A DNA stretch of 46,607 nt, taken from Thiomargarita sp. (GTDB lineage Bacteria; Pseudomonadota; Gammaproteobacteria; Beggiatoales; Beggiatoaceae). The stretch spans positions 1-46,607 of the forward strand of contig DYRG01000022.1 in assembly GCA_020718845.1 (NCBI GenBank). Reading direction: 5' to 3'. The translations under genes were made by a program, and so were the position numbers. The notes beneath the pieces were generated by a model. It saw only the letters and a program-made list of their open reading frames with translations. It did no database searches and was not told where the DNA came from. Shown here piece by piece: positions 3,284-18,016 of the stretch. The first letter of the stretch is position 1. Each line of letters starts with the position of its first letter.

Positions 3284-3733
3284 CGGTAAAATGACTACCA
3301 AAGCACTACCATGTTCAGAAATACATTTGGGCTTTGGTGAACATTGTAATAAGCCTTAATGGCATTAAAAAGCCTCGATTTGAAATAAACTACAAAATAA
3401 TTGAAAAATTTCAAAAAAATTGCAGAATGATTGTCTATATAATAATTTTCTTATATAATTTGTTGATTATAAGGATAATATTGTTTTTAAATAGGGACGC
3501 ACTTTTGGAATCAGCGAATTAAGAGGCAATATACTCGATAATGGATAAAAAGAAATAAGGTGATGATTTATTTAATTTAAAAATTTTAAAGAATTTCAAA
3601 AATTTTGAAATCTTTCGAAAAAAATTAAAATCATTTTTTGATTTAACTCTATGAATTTATTTGATTTTAAATATTGAAATCGTGGAATAATTTAAGATAT
3701 AATCGTGTTTTTAACCCAATTTGGAGAAAGGTC
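3284..3733. other. AT-rich intergenic region, no convincing gene
   Basis: This 450-bp gap separates divergent genes. A 62-codon open frame at 3334-3522 has no ribosome site and a low-complexity composition, so I do not call it. The only marked element is a 17-mer at 3483-3499 that recurs at the 3' end of moxR (listed separately). The stretch 3560-3670 is nearly pure A/T with runs of AAATTTT and probably contains promoters for the gene at 3734. Confidence 0.6.
3483..3499 (+). repeat. Left copy of 17-bp direct repeat (possible att site)
   Basis: GTTTTTAAATAGGGACG is repeated exactly, in the same orientation, at 8745-8761. The right copy contains the stop codon and last codons of moxR. The two copies bracket the AT-rich accessory genes. 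Direct repeats that duplicate the 3' end of a gene are typical of integrated elements, but no integrase is seen between the copies. Confidence 0.45.
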
Positions 3734-4792
3734 ATGTCCGATTACAATCCTAAAGCTATAAAAGAAGCTATTGATCAAAAAGAAGCAATGGATAAAAAAA
3801 ATAATATTAATGAAATAAAGATTAACAATAAATTACTTGCTATGAGAATTAACAACCATCTTAAAAAAAATGATGTTTCTGAAACGATAACGGCAGCAAA
3901 ATTAGGTGCATTACAAAATGGTGCTCCTGCACGTATCTTTTTACATGAACTCTTAGCATTAGCAGAGAAATTAGACTGCTTTGGGGTGGATTTTATAGAT
4001 GAGAAAGTTAAAAAATTGGGTAATTTTGAAGTAAGATTATTATCATTTGATAATGGATTAAAATATAATCAACATATTTTAGAATTAGAACAAGGAGGAA
4101 GAATTGGTATTTTTCCATTCTTTCCAAGCTATCCTTATCGTCCGATTGCTACATTCAATGAACAATCTATTTTATTTCAAAATACGTCTGAAACAGAAAA
4201 GCAGCGCATTCAAGCATTAATCAATGAAAATATTAAAATCAATGATCAACGTTTGGAAAATCTAAAACCCGATAAAAAAAATCCCAAGAAAGCGATTTCA
4301 AGTTCAACTGAATATTATACGATTGATAGTTTTGTTAAGTTTTTGTTCTCGCCTTTTGAAATCCCCTTAACAATAGAACAAAAAATAGCTTCTTTAGAAA
4401 GAATGAAATCGGTATTTAAAAATAATATGACAAGCCATTGTTTCTTTTACACATCAACAGACTATTATCAACGACAATATGCGGCGATGGAAATCTTAAA
4501 AACACATAATTTAGTGTACTTAAATTTACCGATTAGAAGCACTATTTTAGCAATTAAAAATAATAGTTTTTGTAATCAACTCGACCATTTTGTCACAACT
4601 ATTAAAATGGGAACTTGTTTTAAAACTACCAATGACAATAAAGAAGCTGTTGAATTATTAGAAGCGGGAATAACCTATTTAAAAACCCAAAAAAATCTGT
4701 TTTGTAGTTTCAAGGATTTCAATGATTTTAGGGAAAATTTAAAATCCGATAATTTAAAAGAACTACTCAAACTCGCATTTCCTCATTTGTAA
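3734..4792 (+). CDS. Hypothetical protein, possible N-terminal helix-turn-helix
   Basis: The protein has 352 residues. I chose the ATG at 3734 (MSDYNPKAIK) because GGAGAAAGG lies 7 bp upstream; an in-frame ATG at 3674 has no ribosome site. The first ~35 residues are charged and Lys/Asn-rich. Residues ~35-80 form helices with an HTH-like feel (LLAMRINNHLKKNDVSE, then ALQNGAPARIFLHELLALAEKL). The middle is mixed alpha/beta. A Lys/Pro-rich linker near residues 175-190 separates a second domain that contains SHCFFYTSTDYYQRQYAAMEI. No signal peptide, membrane segment or known catalytic motif is visible. I do not recognise the family. It is soluble, AT-rich, monocistronic and closed by a strong terminator. 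A regulatory role linked to the downstream ATPase operon is only a guess from position. Confidence 0.7.
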   Translation: MSDYNPKAIKEAIDQKEAMDKKNNINEIKINNKLLAMRINNHLKKNDVSETITAAKLGALQNGAPARIFLHELLALAEKLDCFGVDFIDEKVKKLGNFEVRLLSFDNGLKYNQHILELEQGGRIGIFPFFPSYPYRPIATFNEQSILFQNTSETEKQRIQALINENIKINDQRLENLKPDKKNPKKAISSSTEYYTIDSFVKFLFSPFEIPLTIEQKIASLERMKSVFKNNMTSHCFFYTSTDYYQRQYAAMEILKTHNLVYLNLPIRSTILAIKNNSFCNQLDHFVTTIKMGTCFKTTNDNKEAVELLEAGITYLKTQKNLFCSFKDFNDFRENLKSDNLKELLKLAFPHL

Positions 4793-5544: not shown

Positions 5545-5658
5545 ATGTTGTGCAAGGTAACTTATTGCGTAGCAATAAGTTGTTTTTTATTCATTAAAAT
5601 AGAGGAAAAGATATGTGTAAGCCAAATATGTGTGATCCAGCGTTTGCAACCGTGTTGA
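5545..5658 (+). CDS. Possible leader peptide overlapping the attenuator
   Basis: An ATG at 5545 with AAGGGAG 5 bp upstream opens a 37-codon frame that runs through the hairpin and into the start of the HTH gene in another frame. The product has six cysteines (positions 3, 8, 13, 24, 29 and 37). Translation through the hairpin could prevent its folding, as in attenuation, or could couple translation to the HTH gene. The good ribosome site is seen; the function is inferred. It may be fortuitous. Confidence 0.3.
   Translation: MLCKVTYCVAISCFLFIKIEEKICVSQICVIQRLQPC
5559..5588 (+). terminator. Terminator-like leader hairpin (possible attenuator)
   Basis: AACTTATTGC (5559-5568) and GCAATAAGTT (5572-5581) form a 10-bp stem with a 3-nt loop, followed by G and six Ts. 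It ends only 25 bp before the ATG at 5613, with no gene on this strand for 770 bp upstream. It is therefore placed to stop leader transcription rather than to close a gene. Confidence 0.7.
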
Positions 5659-6479
5659 AAAAGAAACTTGCTGAAAACCAATTCAGCGATGATAAATATA
5701 AGAAATTTTGTAGTCTAATGGGAGTTGGAGAACCTGCGCTAAAAAATTGGTTAGATTCTAGTAATTATCCAAATAAAAACAACATTCTTGAAATGCAAAA
5801 AGTCTTGCGTTTGAATATCGATGAACTTCAGCGTTTTCTGATGTTGGCAGAGAGAGCCCCATTAACGCCCGAAGAAATGAGGAATATTAAGGAAAATAGT
5901 TATATTTGGTATGCTTATCAAAAAGATTATGATGCGTATAAAAATATGGCAAGTCATAATGCTTTAGAAGAAATCGCTAAACATATTTCTAATCGTAACA
6001 ATCCATTGTTAGTGATTACCCCTAAAGCGCAGTTTCATAATATTCATGTCAAAGTTTTAAAAGGATTTATCGTTAATAAGTTTAAAGATGGGCGTTTTTT
6101 GGAAGTTATTCCTCCTTTTATTGAAGATGAAAACCAATATTTTTCTTCATTAGCGGAGCAATTAGATATATTTCAAAAAGTAGCCATTACTCATAATAAT
6201 GATTTTAAGAAATTGCTTTCAGATTTTATTAAAAGAAAAGATGCGCCTACTTTTCTTTTAATTCGCCATTTAGGCAATGTAAAAAACGCTGAAATTTTTG
6301 CAAGAATCTTACGTTCTATTGTTGATAGCTCAGGTGCAAAATATTTGTATCCGATTTGGATCGCGGGCGAAAAATTAGAAACCCTTGCAAATCAACCCAC
6401 TGATTCCATTTTTAGTATTGCAAGATTGCTTTACAATAAAGCTGAAATAGCTGATATTCAGTTATTGGCATACGATTAG
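5613..6479 (+). CDS. XRE-type HTH fused to a degenerate ATPase-like domain (ends at in-frame TAG)
   Basis: The product has 288 residues. The start has GAGG 7 bp upstream. Residues ~10-65 look like an XRE helix-turn-helix (YKKFCSLMGVGEPALKNWL as the recognition unit). After a linker, residues ~120-285 have alternating strands and helices like an AAA/STAND core. Where a Walker A loop would be expected there is LLVITPKAQFHNIHV, and where Walker B would be there is TFLLIRHLG. It therefore probably does not hydrolyse ATP. The frame ends with TAG at 6477, and the same frame stays open for another 121 codons with sequence that continues an ATPase lid (KIFELTGG, then H). The original gene was probably 5613-6845. 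It likely acts as a DNA-binding regulator or partner of the membrane ATPase just downstream. Confidence 0.75.
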   Translation: MCKPNMCDPAFATVLKKKLAENQFSDDKYKKFCSLMGVGEPALKNWLDSSNYPNKNNILEMQKVLRLNIDELQRFLMLAERAPLTPEEMRNIKENSYIWYAYQKDYDAYKNMASHNALEEIAKHISNRNNPLLVITPKAQFHNIHVKVLKGFIVNKFKDGRFLEVIPPFIEDENQYFSSLAEQLDIFQKVAITHNNDFKKLLSDFIKRKDAPTFLLIRHLGNVKNAEIFARILRSIVDSSGAKYLYPIWIAGEKLETLANQPTDSIFSIARLLYNKAEIADIQLLAYD

Positions 6480-6845
6480 GAAATTAAAGGCGTAAATTAT
6501 GACATTGCAAATAAGATATTTGAACTCACTGGCGGACACTATATGTCAGTTGAATTTTGCTTAGATTTTTTTAATCATAAAAATCAAATTCCTTCTTCTC
6601 AAATGCTCCAAGAATATTTATCGGGATTACCTCTTTTTAATGAATTTGTTGCGCAGAAAGAAATGTTAAACAAATTTTTACAACAAGAGATCATTAATGT
6701 TCCTGCTAGTCATTTAGCATTTTTATCAATTGTAAATACACTTTATTTTAGTGGATTGTTAAAGAAATTAAATGAAAAGAAATTTGCTTGGGTGAATCCA
6801 ATTGTTCGCCAAATTGGTTTAGATATTATGCAGTATATTTTATAG
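6480..6845 (+). CDS. C-terminal part of the interrupted HTH/ATPase-like gene
   Basis: This segment is in the same frame as the HTH gene and separated from it only by a TAG codon. Reading on from the stop gives EIKGVNYDIANKIFELTGGH and then YMSVEFCLDFF. That resembles the lid region of AAA/STAND proteins, where an LTGGHP-like motif precedes a helix. The first in-frame ATG (6543) would start a 100-residue protein in the middle of this motif and has no ribosome site, so separate translation from there is unlikely to give a whole domain. The C-terminal ~70 residues look like a small helical winged-helix-type cap. The segment ends with TAG 9 bp before the next gene. It is a nonsense-mutated remnant, a stop-readthrough product or a sequencing error. 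Confidence 0.65.
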   Translation, partial: EIKGVNYDIANKIFELTGGHYMSVEFCLDFFNHKNQIPSSQMLQEYLSGLPLFNEFVAQKEMLNKFLQQEIINVPASHLAFLSIVNTLYFSGLLKKLNEKKFAWVNPIVRQIGLDIMQYIL

Positions 6846-6854
6846 GAGAAAAAA

Positions 6855-8729
6855 ATGTTAAAAGGTATCATTTTTCTATTAATTGGTTGTTATTGTTTTC
6901 CGCTTTTTGCAGTAGATGCTGAACCTATTGGGAGTTTGATTATAGCTAACGAATCTTCGAGATGGATTATTTTTTGGGTGTTAATAGGATTAGTAGCCGT
7001 GTGGGTAGGTGTACGTGCGATGCGGCTTCAAAGTGATCCAGACCTAAAAGCTATTCTTGAAGACCCGCAGCATCTATTCAATGTGTCTTTAGAAAGGTTG
7101 GAAGTTATTATTAGACTTTTGTCTAAAATCCGTATGTTAAACAGAGTATTAGATGAATGTAACTGTAACGAAAGAACTTTAAGACAAGCCATTTCTTTTA
7201 CTAGAAGACATCCAGATACTATCTTTTATTTTAATATCCTACAAGAAAGAATTGGAAGAGAAATACATCAAAACAGAATTATTTCTGAAGATAATTCAGT
7301 GCCATTTTATGAGTTAGTATTACATCCTGATTTTCCTTTGCCTTTTCATTCAATGAATGTATATGTATTACCTTTTAATTTCAAAGCAGAAGAAATTAAT
7401 AAAATATCTGATACTGTTGTTAATAAATTAGGATGTATTCATCTTATTGTAACGACTAATAAAATATTACAAGAAGCTTTAGATGAATATCGTTTTGATC
7501 GTACAATTAATGTTATTATTCCTACTTTATCAGAATTAACGCAATTACTGTTATCTCCAACCCCGTTAAAAGTATTAACAACAATTTGTGCAAATCAATT
7601 ACATATTGCTCATATTTCACCTTATCAAACTGAGGCGGGTGTGCATAGAGAAATGAATTTCTTTGGACGGGGATCAATTTTAAGAAGAATTATGACCCCA
7701 CCTATCAATAACTACATTATATGCGGAGGACGACAATTAGGTAAATCAAGTATTTTAAAAGCAGTTGAACGTCATTATAGAAAACATAATTCTGTCAAAT
7801 GTTATTATATAATTCTTTCTGGTAATATAGAAAGTGCCGAAAGAGACTTGATTTCTGACTTTGCTAATGTGTTGGAATTAGATAAGAATTTGTCATTTGA
7901 TGATTTGATTTATTTTCTTAAACAACCGAGAGAATTTACCTATGTTTTTTTAATTGACGAAATCGATACTTTTATTTGTCATGATCGTTTAAATGGTTAT
8001 CGAGTTGTTCGCCATTTTTTAAGTTTAAGTCAGACAGGTAAGTGTTTCTTTATTTTTGCGGGTTTTTGGGAACTTTATACATCGACTTTCTTAGAAAACT
8101 TATCGCCACTTAAAAATTTTGGTGAATTTGTTCAAATTGAAGGGTTAGAAGAAAATGCTAGTTATGAATTGAGTACTATTCCATTAACATGGTTAGGTAT
8201 TGAATATGAAGATAAAGAGTTACCTTTCCAATTAATTAATTTAGTGGGACGGCGAGCGAACTTGGTTACTTCTATGTGCCATGAAGTATTACAACTTATT
8301 CCTTCTAATGTTTATAAGATTGAAGAAAAAGATATTAGAAGAGCTTCAAATAGTTCAGTTATAAATTCAAAAATATCAATGAGTTGGGGGAAACTGGTAA
8401 ATAACGTTCTTGATGCTCAACTAGATCGTATGATTATTTATATGTGTGCAAAATCTATAGAAAGATTAAATGCTAATGATATTAGAAAAGCTTTAGATAA
8501 GTATAAAGAATATCATTATATTTTTCCTCAATTTGAACAAGCGTTAAAACGTTTAGAATTAGCGTATATCATTAAGAGAAATTTAGACGATAATCGTTAT
8601 GATTTTTGTGTGCCACTTTTTGTAAGACAATTGAGAGAAACTCCCATAGATGAAATAATTGAACTTGAATTAATGGAATATCATTACCGTAAAAAACAAG
8701 CATACAAAACAGGCGTACAAATTTTATAA
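6855..8729 (+). CDS. Membrane-anchored P-loop (STAND/AAA-like) ATPase
   Basis: The protein has 624 residues, and AGGAG lies 7 bp upstream of the ATG. Residues 3-20 look like a signal peptide or first membrane helix, and residues ~36-54 (RWIIFWVLIGLVAVW...) form a second helix, so the rest is probably tethered to the inner membrane. Residues ~60-255 are an unrecognised mixed domain. FFGR (269-272) precedes the ATPase, as in cyanobacterial and sulfur-bacterial AAA-like proteins. Walker A is GGRQLGKSS (291-299), Walker B is VFLIDEID (364-371), and GRRAN (465-469) sits in a sensor-2/lid-like position. Residues ~515-600 look like a winged-helix. Partners are the HTH/ATPase-like gene 9 bp upstream and possibly the 352-residue protein. 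Function is unknown; conflict or signalling is inferred from the STAND-like architecture. Confidence 0.8.
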   Translation: MLKGIIFLLIGCYCFPLFAVDAEPIGSLIIANESSRWIIFWVLIGLVAVWVGVRAMRLQSDPDLKAILEDPQHLFNVSLERLEVIIRLLSKIRMLNRVLDECNCNERTLRQAISFTRRHPDTIFYFNILQERIGREIHQNRIISEDNSVPFYELVLHPDFPLPFHSMNVYVLPFNFKAEEINKISDTVVNKLGCIHLIVTTNKILQEALDEYRFDRTINVIIPTLSELTQLLLSPTPLKVLTTICANQLHIAHISPYQTEAGVHREMNFFGRGSILRRIMTPPINNYIICGGRQLGKSSILKAVERHYRKHNSVKCYYIILSGNIESAERDLISDFANVLELDKNLSFDDLIYFLKQPREFTYVFLIDEIDTFICHDRLNGYRVVRHFLSLSQTGKCFFIFAGFWELYTSTFLENLSPLKNFGEFVQIEGLEENASYELSTIPLTWLGIEYEDKELPFQLINLVGRRANLVTSMCHEVLQLIPSNVYKIEEKDIRRASNSSVINSKISMSWGKLVNNVLDAQLDRMIIYMCAKSIERLNANDIRKALDKYKEYHYIFPQFEQALKRLELAYIIKRNLDDNRYDFCVPLFVRQLRETPIDEIIELELMEYHYRKKQAYKTGVQIL

Positions 8730-8744
8730 ACTTGATACGAAATC

Positions 8745-8761
8745 GTTTTTAAATAGGGACG
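8745..8761 (+). repeat. Right copy of 17-bp direct repeat at moxR 3' end
   Basis: This is identical to 3483-3499 and overlaps the moxR stop codon (8749-8751) and its last codons. It marks the right boundary of the AT-rich island. Confidence 0.45.
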
Positions 8762-9675
8762 GGAAAACGTTGAATAATTTCTCGGACAATGGCTTCGGCT
8801 TGTTGTCCAGAAAAGCGGGCGTGAGAATCTAATTTCAAACGATGAGAAATAACTGGTACTGCAAGCTCTTGAATATGTTCAGGTAATATGTATTCTAAAC
8901 CATCAAATAAAGCCAACGCCTGCGCGGTTTTTAATAAGGTTAAAGAAGCTCGTGGACTCGCGCCTAATTGCACGCCAGAAACATTACGAGTTTCTCTGAC
9001 TAATTGCACTAAATAATATTTTAATTCTTCACTCACTCTAATAGTTTGAACTTGCTTTTTTAGTTCAATAATTTCTTCATGTTCAATACAAGGCTTTATA
9101 TTATTAATTTGATGCGCTTGATCTAATAATTTCACTTCTTCTTCTTGAGAAATGTAACCCAAACTAAACCTCATCGCAAACCGATCCATTTGCGCTTCGG
9201 GAAGGGGATAAGTCCCATGAAATTCAACCGGATTTTGAGTCGCAATCACAAAAAATAACTCACTTAACGGATAACGAATGCCGTCGATGCTGACTTGACG
9301 TTCCGCCATCGCTTCCAAAAGGGCAGCCTGCGTGCGCGGCGACGCTCGATTGATTTCATCTGCCAACAAAATCTCGGTGAAAATCGGTCCAGCGTGAAAA
9401 TTAAAATTCTGCGCGTTCGGATCAAAAATCGACACCCCTAAAATATCCGACGGCAATAAATCGGGCGTAAATTGAATGCGTTGGAATTGTGCTGCTAACG
9501 ATTGCGCAAGGGCTTTCGCTAAAGTTGTTTTGCCCGTGCCGGGTAAATCCTCCAACAGCACATGACCGCCCGCCGCAAACGCCGCTAACAATTTTCGAAT
9601 CGCGGGACGTTGCCCTTGCACGACTTGCTCGATGTTGCCGACGATGCGTTCATAAAGTGCTGTTGCGAGAATCAT
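8749..9675 (-). CDS. moxR: MoxR family AAA+ ATPase
   Basis: The protein has 308 residues, usual for the family. Walker A is DLPGTGKTT (residues 43-51), Walker B is ILLADEIN (102-109), and the sensor-1 asparagine lies in ATQNP (~148). The PLPEAQMDRFAMRF segment and the C-terminal helical lid are typical of AAA_3 MoxR chaperones. These usually activate enzymes or work with vWA-domain proteins; no vWA gene is adjacent here. The start codon directly abuts the rubredoxin stop codon, so the two are co-transcribed on the minus strand. The 3' end carries the direct repeat that borders the island. Confidence 0.93.
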   Translation of the reverse strand: MILATALYERIVGNIEQVVQGQRPAIRKLLAAFAAGGHVLLEDLPGTGKTTLAKALAQSLAAQFQRIQFTPDLLPSDILGVSIFDPNAQNFNFHAGPIFTEILLADEINRASPRTQAALLEAMAERQVSIDGIRYPLSELFFVIATQNPVEFHGTYPLPEAQMDRFAMRFSLGYISQEEEVKLLDQAHQINNIKPCIEHEEIIELKKQVQTIRVSEELKYYLVQLVRETRNVSGVQLGASPRASLTLLKTAQALALFDGLEYILPEHIQELAVPVISHRLKLDSHARFSGQQAEAIVREIIQRFPVPI

Positions 9676-15637: not shown

Positions 15638-16537
15638 TTAGTGTTTAAGTTGTTCGATGTTTTCCTTAGAAAGCCCCGTGACTTCGATAATAAAATCCAC
15701 ATCGACTCCTTTAAGCAACATTGCTTTTGCGGTTTCTAACTTTCCTTTGAGAATACCTTTTTTCTCGCCTTTTTTCTCGCCTTTTTGAAAGGCAATTTCG
15801 TCGCAGATTTTCATGTTTTCCAAAAACATATTTAGCTCCTTTTCGGTTTGAACTTTATCCAATGATTTCCAATCTACTTCGTCGAGTTTTTTATGGTTAA
15901 AGAGTTGTTCAAAATAATTAAACAACATCGACACCATTTGATGATTATCTTGTTTGAGCAATTTTGATAATTCTTGAATTAACAAGGCTCTATCAAAATG
16001 CACTTCTCCTAAAAATAACGTAGAAACCACATTACCTATTTTCAAGAGTTGTTCAATAGCGATTTCATTTTCAGCAATTTTAAAATAGTTGAAATTAAGT
16101 GCAAACTCACCCAGTAATTCATTGTTTTCTATTAGATTATTTAGATTTGTGGGTGCTGTCCATTTTTCTTTTCCACTATACACAACAATAGGAAACACCG
16201 CTGGGAGTTTTTCAAAGGTTTGTTCGGATTCTTTCAAACGTAAATAAAAATTCGTAATGTAATGTAAAATCCGCAACGCCATGAATTTATCTGAACTCGA
16301 TTGAAATTCAATTAAAACAATAATATACGTTGTTTTGCCTCGTAATTGGGTTTTATAAATAACATCGCTTTCACGCTTTTCGTATTCTTTAGAAATAAAA
16401 GTTTTATCCAACAATTCACAATGCTCAAAATCTATTTCTTTCACCCATTCAAACGGCACAAAGGATTCTAACAATTGCTGAAAAAATCCTTTATTTGAAA
16501 AGAGTTTCTTATAACCACGATCATAAATTTGCGTCAT
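15638..16537 (-). CDS. Rpn family nuclease/putative transposase (PD-(D/E)XK), copy 1
   Basis: The protein has 299 residues. The N-terminal ~230 residues match the Rpn/transposase_31 family: YDRGYKKLFSNKGFFQQLL, then the catalytic strand pair with D58 (ESDVIYK) and E77-x-Q79 (LIEFQSS), then FPIVVYSGKEKW. Family members promote RecA-independent recombination through DNA cleavage. The C-terminus has a GEKKGEKKGILKGKLE linker and a helix-turn-helix-like tail (VDVDFIIEVTGLSKENIEQL). A paralogue lies at 17003-17938 with a small gene between them. No inverted terminal repeats were seen around it. Confidence 0.88.
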   Translation of the reverse strand: MTQIYDRGYKKLFSNKGFFQQLLESFVPFEWVKEIDFEHCELLDKTFISKEYEKRESDVIYKTQLRGKTTYIIVLIEFQSSSDKFMALRILHYITNFYLRLKESEQTFEKLPAVFPIVVYSGKEKWTAPTNLNNLIENNELLGEFALNFNYFKIAENEIAIEQLLKIGNVVSTLFLGEVHFDRALLIQELSKLLKQDNHQMVSMLFNYFEQLFNHKKLDEVDWKSLDKVQTEKELNMFLENMKICDEIAFQKGEKKGEKKGILKGKLETAKAMLLKGVDVDFIIEVTGLSKENIEQLKH

Positions 16538-17002: not shown

Positions 17003-17938
17003 TCAATTAGTTTGATTTCTAAGTTGCTCAATCTCTTCCTTTGAGAGTTGGGTGATTTCTATGATTAATTTAATATCCAAACCTTTTAAAAGCATGGTTC
17101 GAGCAATTTCTCTATCTCGTTCAGCTTTTCCTTCAAGTTTCCCTTCAAGTTTCCCTTCAAGTTTTCCTTCGAGTTTTCCTTGTTTTAAAAGGTTGAGTTT
17201 TTCTTGTTTAATGGCTTCAACTAACATACTTAGTTCTCCTTTATCATGATACACTTGGTTAAGTTTTTCAAAGTCGGCTTCGGTAACTCTTTTGTTTTCA
17301 TACAAATGCCTAAACCAATTAAATAATAACGAGATTGCACTATGATCTTCTTTATCAAATAAAGACATAACCTCTTCTAACAATATATCAATATCGTAAT
17401 GAATTTCTGTAAAAAAGATCGTTGAAATAACTTTTTGAATTTTCAAAAGACTTTCTGCACTAAATTCATTTTCAGCAATTTTGAAATACTTAAATTGTAC
17501 GCCAAATTCGCCTAATAAATCATGATTTTCTATCAAATCTTTTATTTCAACAGGCGCAGTCCATTTTTCCTTACCATTGTACAAAACAATTGGAAAAACG
17601 GGCGGGAGTTTCTTTGGTTTGCCTTTTTGATTAATCAAATCCAAATAGAAACTCATCATGTAATGCAACACTCTCACCGCCATGAAAGGTTGAACGGTCG
17701 ATTGAAATTCCATTAAAATCACAATGTAAGCAGTTTGATCTTTAAGTTTAACTTTATAAATCAAATCGCTTTCATGTTTTCGATGTTTTTTTGAAATAAA
17801 AGTTTTATTAAGTTTCTCGATATTTTCAAAATCAATCTCAGAAACCCAAGGTTGTTTCACAAAAGTTTCTAACAATTGCCGAAAAATCACCTTGTTTGAA
17901 AACAATAATGAATAACTTAAATCATGCTCGTTCGCCAT
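17003..17938 (-). CDS. Rpn family nuclease/putative transposase (PD-(D/E)XK), copy 2
   Basis: The protein has 311 residues from ATG 17938; a TTG 15 bp upstream is a less likely start. It aligns with copy 1 along its whole length, with D58 (ESDLIYK) and E77-x-Q79 (LMEFQST) as the catalytic triad and FPIVLYNGKEKW beyond. Near residue 255 the linker has four direct GKLE repeats encoded by a 12-bp tandem repeat. The C-terminal tail again ends with an HTH-like helix pair (DIKLIIEITQLSKEEIEQL). No clear Shine-Dalgarno sequence is present; instead a run of 11 A residues ends 1 bp before the ATG. Confidence 0.87.
   Translation of the reverse strand: MANEHDLSYSLLFSNKVIFRQLLETFVKQPWVSEIDFENIEKLNKTFISKKHRKHESDLIYKVKLKDQTAYIVILMEFQSTVQPFMAVRVLHYMMSFYLDLINQKGKPKKLPPVFPIVLYNGKEKWTAPVEIKDLIENHDLLGEFGVQFKYFKIAENEFSAESLLKIQKVISTIFFTEIHYDIDILLEEVMSLFDKEDHSAISLLFNWFRHLYENKRVTEADFEKLNQVYHDKGELSMLVEAIKQEKLNLLKQGKLEGKLEGKLEGKLEGKAERDREIARTMLLKGLDIKLIIEITQLSKEEIEQLRNQTN
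17126..17182 (-). repeat. 12-bp tandem repeat encoding GKLE units
   Basis: Four near-identical 12-bp units (plus strand CTTCAAGTTTCC-like) encode GKLEGKLEGKLEGKLE in the linker of Rpn copy 2. The length is a multiple of three, so unit gain or loss would keep the frame. Copy 1 has a related but shorter GEKKGEKKG linker. Confidence 0.75.
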
Positions 17939-18016
17939 CTTTTTTTTTTTCAAAAATAATTAGTTTCAACATTACAATCGGTCGCTGCGTGTGCGAAGTG
18001 GACGTTTAAGGCATTA

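Follow-up and report, generated by a model that had tools for sequence, protein, structure and literature searches.

A membrane-anchored STAND-type ATPase (gene B) and an upstream partner without its ATP-binding motifs (gene A) lie together in a 46,607-nucleotide stretch of DNA from Thiomargarita sp., hereafter the window (GCA_020718845.1, contig DYRG01000022.1, positions 1-46,607, forward strand). The two genes are a worn, probably decaying version of a bacterial pair, as yet little known, that would serve signalling or defence: a membrane receptor with an ATPase like that of immune receptors probably activates a partner that bears an inactive form of this ATPase and an exchangeable output module. 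The firm ground for this reading is the anatomy of the two proteins, their co-linearity, their predicted fold, the loss of the ATP motifs in A together with their retention in B, and a conserved arginine.

The two genes recur together. We compared 80 loci, sampled at one genome per species and representing the best 80 of at least 145, which span Beggiatoaceae-like sulfur bacteria, Chromatiaceae, Xanthomonadaceae, Comamonadaceae, Pseudomonas, Sulfurovum, Sulfurimonas, Spirochaetales and Aminicenantes. In 68 of the 80 loci A precedes B on the same strand, with a gap of at most 100 nt in 53 of these 68; 30 of the 53 are overlaps of 4 or 16 nt, which are approximate because start codons were chosen by script. 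Nine of the 12 loci without A have a B frame that begins less than 300 nt from the contig end, leaving no room for A, and the true exceptions without an upstream A are L090, L102 and L115. Across 42 genomes of the host family, strong matches to A occur in 21, to B in 23, and to both in 19 (Fisher p 5.8e-6, with the 42 genomes taken as independent). The strong A matches fall in 39 places (E up to 1.4e-31; both places in genome G035 hold the N-terminal part only) and the strong B matches in 33 (E up to 1.6e-78). For 19 of the 33 B places an A is present on the same contig and strand, upstream in 17 and downstream in 2; in two of the 17 the genes are 7.0 and 6.8 kb apart, and some of the contigs are short. 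The recurrence of the pair exceeds chance. A first-pass annotation, made from the letters of the window, had supposed that the inactive and active genes belong together and had proposed a search for co-occurring homologues; the search bears the supposition out, with the pair side by side in patchily distributed loci.

Of 95 genomes, 25 have relatives of B at E<=0.001, the window's own genome counted, and that genome holds a single A match and a single B match, both those of the window pair. In the class Gammaproteobacteria the pair is rare: a search at E<=1e-40 gave matches in at least 3 of 369 genomes, among them the window's own genome and another from the host family, a lower bound with at most three candidates scored per genome. 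Presence is also patchy within genera, at 27 of 47 genomes in the genus of Acidovorax facilis and 8 of 61 in that of Stenotrophomonas.

Protein B of the window runs from a signal-peptide-like segment through 18 residues, a membrane helix and a domain of ~190 residues into the ATPase. The two N-terminal hydrophobic helices named in the first-pass annotation are visible in 19-residue windows that begin at residues 2 and 38. The Walker A (GGRQLGKSS) and Walker B (LIDEID) that it named are intact and hold across the family: in alignment A5, which joins 70 of the 80 B proteins to window B (n = 71), the Walker GK is kept in 71/71, D368 and D371 in 71/71 and E369 in 67/71. An arginine before the sensor-1 strand is kept in 68 of the 71, and window B has leucine there. 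Structure comparison of the AlphaFold model of B (pLDDT 90.7) reveals the nucleotide-binding domain, helical and winged-helix arrangement. Over residues ~250-610 the closest structures are 2qen (Z 22.7, 317 residues), Orc2 (20.2) and the wheat G10 resistosome (19.7), followed by NRC4 and RPP1 (both 18.9) and CED-4 (17.7). B is therefore modelled as a membrane-anchored ATPase of the STAND/Orc type, in keeping with the original description.

The predicted domain order of B is shared with NLR proteins, CED-4, Apaf-1 and the archaeal 2qen/2fna ATPases. B differs from all of these in its membrane anchor, and a sequence search of the PDB with window B gave one chance-level chain only (E 0.79). Among Pfam STAND models, nSTAND1 is passed by the relative L126 (32.0 vs cut-off 27.1) and window B passes none. 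The ~190-residue domain has no Pfam match over cut-off, its sequence matches to solved structures are not meaningful (best E 0.16), and fold searches with the B model scarcely cover it.

Protein A of the window has no Pfam match over cut-off. In an alignment with 17 relatives, most proteins begin with an XRE-like helix-turn-helix (HTH), the residues of Walker A and Walker B have given way to others, and a GGH motif and other positions are kept; in 50 A proteins the Walker positions hold other, mostly conserved residues instead. The HTH part of the A family profile matches XRE-type structures (2kpj, E 1.8e-5; 3op9, 1.2e-4), making A XRE-like by fold, with putative DNA binding. An arginine before the sensor-1 strand is kept in 63/63 proteins of alignment A4, which holds 63 of the 66 A proteins listed (L095, L098 and L134 were left out as partial), and in 49/50 of alignment A6, which holds 50. 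The AlphaFold model of A (pLDDT 85.5) aligns with 2qen (Z 14.3, 285 residues, 5.0 Å), the NRC4 resistosome (13.1), RPP1 (13.0) and CED-4 (12.5). Avs5 (9jap, Z 11.4) is the only bacterial immune STAND in this structure list, in which other absences prove nothing. Of 63 A proteins, 5 match the Pfam family AAA_35 at E<=0.001, and such scores as were shown are under its cut-off.

By its modelled fold, A is a pseudo-STAND: a STAND/Orc fold from which Walker A and B are absent family-wide. The first-pass description of A, an XRE-type HTH joined to an ATPase-like domain without visible Walker motifs, stands on both counts, and the structure prediction that it had called for returns an ATPase fold. 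The A and B profiles are themselves homologous (hhalign E 5.1e-6, probability 86%, 245 columns), and on this profile similarity the two are remote paralogues.

The N-terminal module of A is exchangeable. Among 67 A cores, 49 carry an HTH, 12 bear TIR, 2 have an alpha/beta hydrolase, 2 have a two-helix membrane module recognised by eye, and 2 are cut at the N-terminus. Both alpha/beta-hydrolase proteins have PGAP1 matches, and one also matches LmuA. Two TIR types, L087 and L103, begin with a hydrophobic stretch found by eye; another, L104, also has what we take, again by eye, to be an EAD-like N-terminus. A single chain in Thiothrix (L106, 3292-5406, plus strand) joins CHAT (caspase-like), TIR and pseudo-STAND. 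The annotators' idea of a signal carried from membrane to DNA thus survives in part: HTH is one output type, but TIR, CHAT plus TIR, alpha/beta-hydrolase and two-helix modules occupy its position in relatives.

The ectodomain of B is exchangeable as well, and most relatives of B run from a signal peptide through this domain and a membrane helix into a cytoplasmic STAND ATPase. An ectodomain was found in 70 of the 80 B proteins, pilin-like in 40, WD40 in 26 and NHL in 4; it was not found in 10, some of which are fragments or masked. Hosts of the pilin-like ectodomain are Xanthomonadaceae, Comamonadaceae and Pseudomonas. PF00114 matches 9 of 18 pilin-like ectodomains at E<=0.5 (best 9.1e-6; L126 is over cut-off, 23.8 vs 22), and both cysteines of the C-terminal pair are present in 18/18. 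In three genomes of the host family, a reverse-strand coiled-coil-like gene lies between A and a B without ectodomain (L046:5881-7032, L052:4970-6457 and L057:5160-6287, all minus strand). These genes are mutually homologous, the same genes occur in L086 and L100, and they may replace or regulate the missing sensor.

Sensor and output are associated. Across the 80 loci, HTH types go with a pilin-like sensor in 39 cases, NHL in 4, none found in 4 and WD40 in 1, so that HTH occurs without WD40 in 47/48. Non-HTH outputs go with WD40 in 15/16, and the exception, L118, has a masked N-terminus. WD40 and HTH are combined in the family loci L064 and L065, where A is downstream and either adjoins B or lies ~2.5 kb off, and in L061, where A lies ~4.6 kb upstream. 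The pairing is a tendency, and the loci are non-independent. On a tree of 71 B proteins, made by a quick method and with rows lacking a complete A not counted for output, there are at least five output changes and at least five sensor changes.

From these sequences and models we lean, by a narrow measure, towards a split two-gene membrane receptor: B would be the sensor for events outside the cytoplasm and would assemble with A, which gives the output. A stimulus outside the cytoplasm would act on the B ectodomain, ATP-loaded B would assemble at the membrane, and B would recruit A through their common ATPase fold. Inactive partners help active ATP sites in other AAA+ rings, and the conserved arginine of A may likewise complete B's ATP site in trans. 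Clustering of A would bring the output modules together and turn the output on. HTH types would act on transcription; enzyme and membrane types would cleave NAD, degrade proteins, hydrolyse lipids or damage membranes.

Only tentatively would we extend this to a membrane-spanning, NLR-like receptor family serving cell-surface innate immunity, with an extracytoplasmic propeller or pilin-like sensor, a STAND B, and a pseudo-ATPase A that fires TIR, CHAT, lipase-like, membrane or transcription outputs. If true, the sensor would stand outside the cytoplasm and an inactive version of the ATPase would carry the output, and the family would therefore offer a direct test of pseudo-ATPases as adaptors in bacterial immunity. 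One receptor chassis bearing enzymes in some lineages and HTH in others would also be a natural experiment on how immune and regulatory systems interconvert. Culturable, named hosts make the family testable: Lamprocystis purpurea DSM 4197, Delftia acidovorans, Acidovorax facilis and Tahibacter aquaticus.

Several points weigh against the split-receptor reading. The topology of B is predicted from hydrophobic segments and the cysteine pair; only 3 and 1 repeats went into the models of the WD40 and NHL repeats, and the output and sensor labels on the B tree were typed by hand. Foldseek TM-scores for A reach at most 0.43 of the query among the 50 rows shown, with large root-mean-square deviations, and the fold assigned to A therefore depends on the VIA alignment. 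The conserved arginine precedes the sensor-1 strand, and calling it an arginine finger is a guess. None of the PADLOC 2023 models matches window A or B at E<=0.01. The commonest type in this sample, HTH with a pilin-like sensor, sits at partly conserved chromosomal sites in Acidovorax-like bacteria and Stenotrophomonas, and a settled regulator therefore fits as well as a conflict system. An extracytoplasmic sensor is also not unheard of, since PMC10907252 predicts STAND-type targets with periplasmic parts in one genome.

Known systems share the principle of the pair. One of the closest is the nSTAND2 two-gene system (Kaur et al. 2021, PMC8195603), which combines one active and one inactive STAND with mostly GT4 or HEPN outputs. 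It is likewise a two-gene operon of STAND NTPases in which one has eroded NTP-binding motifs and the outputs vary; it differs in that section 15 of that paper mentions neither a membrane-spanning active partner nor an ectodomain. In our data the nSTAND2 profile PF20702 hits places elsewhere in 3 of 8 genomes and no A or B locus, and the 12 families to which 63 A proteins have matches at E<=0.001 include neither GT4 nor HEPN.

Kaur et al. 2020 (PMC7159879) describe MoxR-vWA systems that contain inactive STANDs bearing TIR, peptidase or EAD, some of which are said to act close to the membrane. These iSTAND and iSTAND2 proteins resemble A in pairing an inactive STAND with an N-terminal TIR, peptidase or EAD and in occurring in multicellular proteobacteria (PMC7159879 and PMC8195603). 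As described there, they differ in belonging to ternary systems built on MoxR and vWA, whereas A is found with a membrane STAND. The iSTAND profile PF19995 hits places elsewhere in 4 of 8 genomes and no A or B locus. A MoxR-family AAA ATPase gene does adjoin B in the window (8749-9675, minus strand, convergent with B). We rejected a ternary MoxR-vWA link, as this neighbour is not conserved: blastp against the open reading frames (ORFs) of L046-L165 gave weak matches in L111 and L130 only.

Characterised antiviral STAND proteins usually have effector, ATPase and sensor in one chain (PMC10907252). Avs, bacterial NACHT proteins and STAND targets diversified by diversity-generating retroelements resemble the pair in coupling a STAND ATPase to an effector and a variable sensor, and some of those targets are predicted to reach the periplasm. 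They differ in usually being one polypeptide; here sensor and STAND (B) and pseudo-STAND and output (A) are on two genes.

NCBIfam returned nothing for window A or B. Six relatives run through PADLOC gave a weak match of the Delftia B to PDC-S01 (E 0.0011), TIR effector models for the TIR types, and LmuA for L127 (E 4.6e-15). Our search of the open-access literature, with subscription papers and preprints mostly outside its scope, found no description of the membrane pair. The principle of an active/inactive STAND pair is already in print. In the open-access literature the search turned up no active partner that spans the membrane and carries an exchangeable ectodomain.

The copy in the window departs from this family picture. 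Window B has no ectodomain, with only 18 residues before the transmembrane helix where relatives have a propeller or pilin-like domain, and it is the longest branch of the 71-protein tree (end branch 2.35 vs median 0.19; the placing of long rows is unsure). Window A is interrupted: its reading frame, 5613-6845, comprises 411 codons including the final stop and contains one internal TAG, so that the pair appears in the ORF list as three open pieces of 288, 100 (6543-6845) and 624 aa. The intact pair implied by the first-pass annotation, with A as one open gene, is accordingly not what the window holds. The spacing of 9 bp that it gave applies to the read-through A frame only; from the real stop to the start of B there are 375 bp, because the TAG ends A at position 6479. 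The in-frame continuation of A lies outside its product unless there is readthrough or a sequencing error. Recoding of TAG as a sense codon was considered and ruled out, since TAG is the stop codon of 5 of the 38 window genes listed, including A's own frame at its final stop; the others presumably include FabF-like and Dxr-like genes. We read the window copy as reduced and probably decaying. With its ectodomain lost, its A truncated by a stop and its B highly diverged, it is unlikely to signal as its relatives do. Despite that divergence, window B retains a long uninterrupted reading frame and the ATP motifs.

The alternatives to a split receptor are not mutually exclusive, and our estimates for them need not sum to one. 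The strongest concerns the window alone: somewhat short of an even chance, the pair is a dead remnant without function in its own genome. The TAG in A, the missing ectodomain, the longest branch, the arginine lost from B and the status of sole copy in the genome all point this way; B remains a 624-codon open frame with perfect Walker motifs, and the shortened A retains a complete HTH, which argues against it.

For the family, a rather unlikely alternative is an envelope-sensing transcription regulator, in which B monitors the cell surface (pilin folding, for example), A regulates through its HTH, and the TIR and hydrolase types are late recruitments. HTH is the commonest module, in 49/67 A cores, and the window type; where a pilin-like B has a neighbouring A, that A is an HTH type in 39/39. 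Flanking sequence is also shared. In Acidovorax-like bacteria more than 1 kb upstream is common to 91/91 pairs of loci (14 loci) and downstream to 36/78 (13 loci), and in Stenotrophomonas (7 loci) the figures are 12/21 upstream and 17/21 downstream; in Delftia (3 loci) they are 1/3 and 0/3. Against a regulator stand the patchiness within genera noted above, the WD40 association of non-HTH outputs (15/16), the matches of TIR and hydrolase types to PADLOC effector models, and the lack of any common neighbour evident by eye over 9 loci with crude ORF calls.

That the TAG is a sequencing or assembly error, leaving A intact and 9 bp before B, is distinctly improbable. The source is a single draft assembly of 123 contigs, and conserved residues (GGH and the winged-helix-like end) continue beyond the stop; but B independently shows signs of relaxed constraint, and other B copies in the family are broken. 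The 14 other A matches of a single-sequence search of the host family contain no internal stop. A profile search at E<1e-50 listed one stop in each of three other places, a TAG in G032:C43, a TAA in the partial match G017:C145 and, by its coordinates, the gene's terminal stop in G032:C436. Gene A is broken unless the TAG is a sequencing error.

A transposition ATPase of the TniB/TnsC/MuB type, with A as its regulator, is hardly credible for B: some relatives match TniB (PF05621; L062, 25.9 vs cut-off 22.4) and TnsC and MuB appear in the B structure list, but 2qen, Orc2 and NLR-type ATPases are closer, B relatives have a signal peptide, ectodomain and membrane helix, and no transposase was noticed in the 9 neighbourhoods viewed, which were not searched for one.

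Table 1. Features of the A-B pair in the window.
Feature	Coordinates	Strand	Remark
Gene A, readable part: XRE-like HTH and first half of pseudo-STAND ATPase domain, 288 aa	5613..6479	+	
XRE-like helix-turn-helix region of A	5637..5846	+	model helices 9-78
Arg234 of A	6312..6314	+	candidate for completing B's ATP site in trans (inferred)
In-frame TAG interrupting gene A	6477..6479	+	
In-frame continuation of A: helical part with conserved GGH, then winged-helix-like end	6480..6845	+	
Gene B: membrane-anchored STAND-type ATPase with intact Walker motifs, 624 aa	6855..8729	+	
First hydrophobic segment of B, signal-peptide-like	6858..6914	+	compared with relatives
Transmembrane helix of B	6951..7031	+	model helix 33-59
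Family-specific ~190-residue cytoplasmic domain of B	7032..7610	+	
Walker A of B, GGRQLGKSS	7725..7751	+	
Walker B of B, VFLIDEID	7944..7967	+	

Mobile and viral DNA gave few relatives. A plasmid search with window B returned 10 records, all partial matches below 60% identity, and one with the Delftia B gave no match at E<=1e-30. The IMG/VR viral contigs contain three B relatives (L169, L170 and L171), pilin-like in L169 and L170, with A adjoining B on L169 and L171; the A query itself found none on viral contigs. These contigs may be misassigned host DNA.

Other irregular copies were seen. One host-family genome has two tandem A genes (L068, 6922-8106 and 8317-9474, both minus strand) adjoining one B fragment, and B is split over two frames in the sulfur-bacterial loci L070, L059, L072, L101 and L105. 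Decay of the pair may be common in the host family.

The surroundings of the pair are AT-rich, with a GC fraction of 0.28-0.30 over 3 to 8 kb of the window. Upstream, within this stretch, lies an orphan ORF of 372 aa (3674-4792, plus strand), which neither matches a Pfam family over cut-off nor has a homologue among the fetched loci. Farther along, two minus-strand genes of similar appearance (15638-16537 and 17003-17953) resemble what we take to be the Rpn/PD-(D/E)XK transposase-like family.

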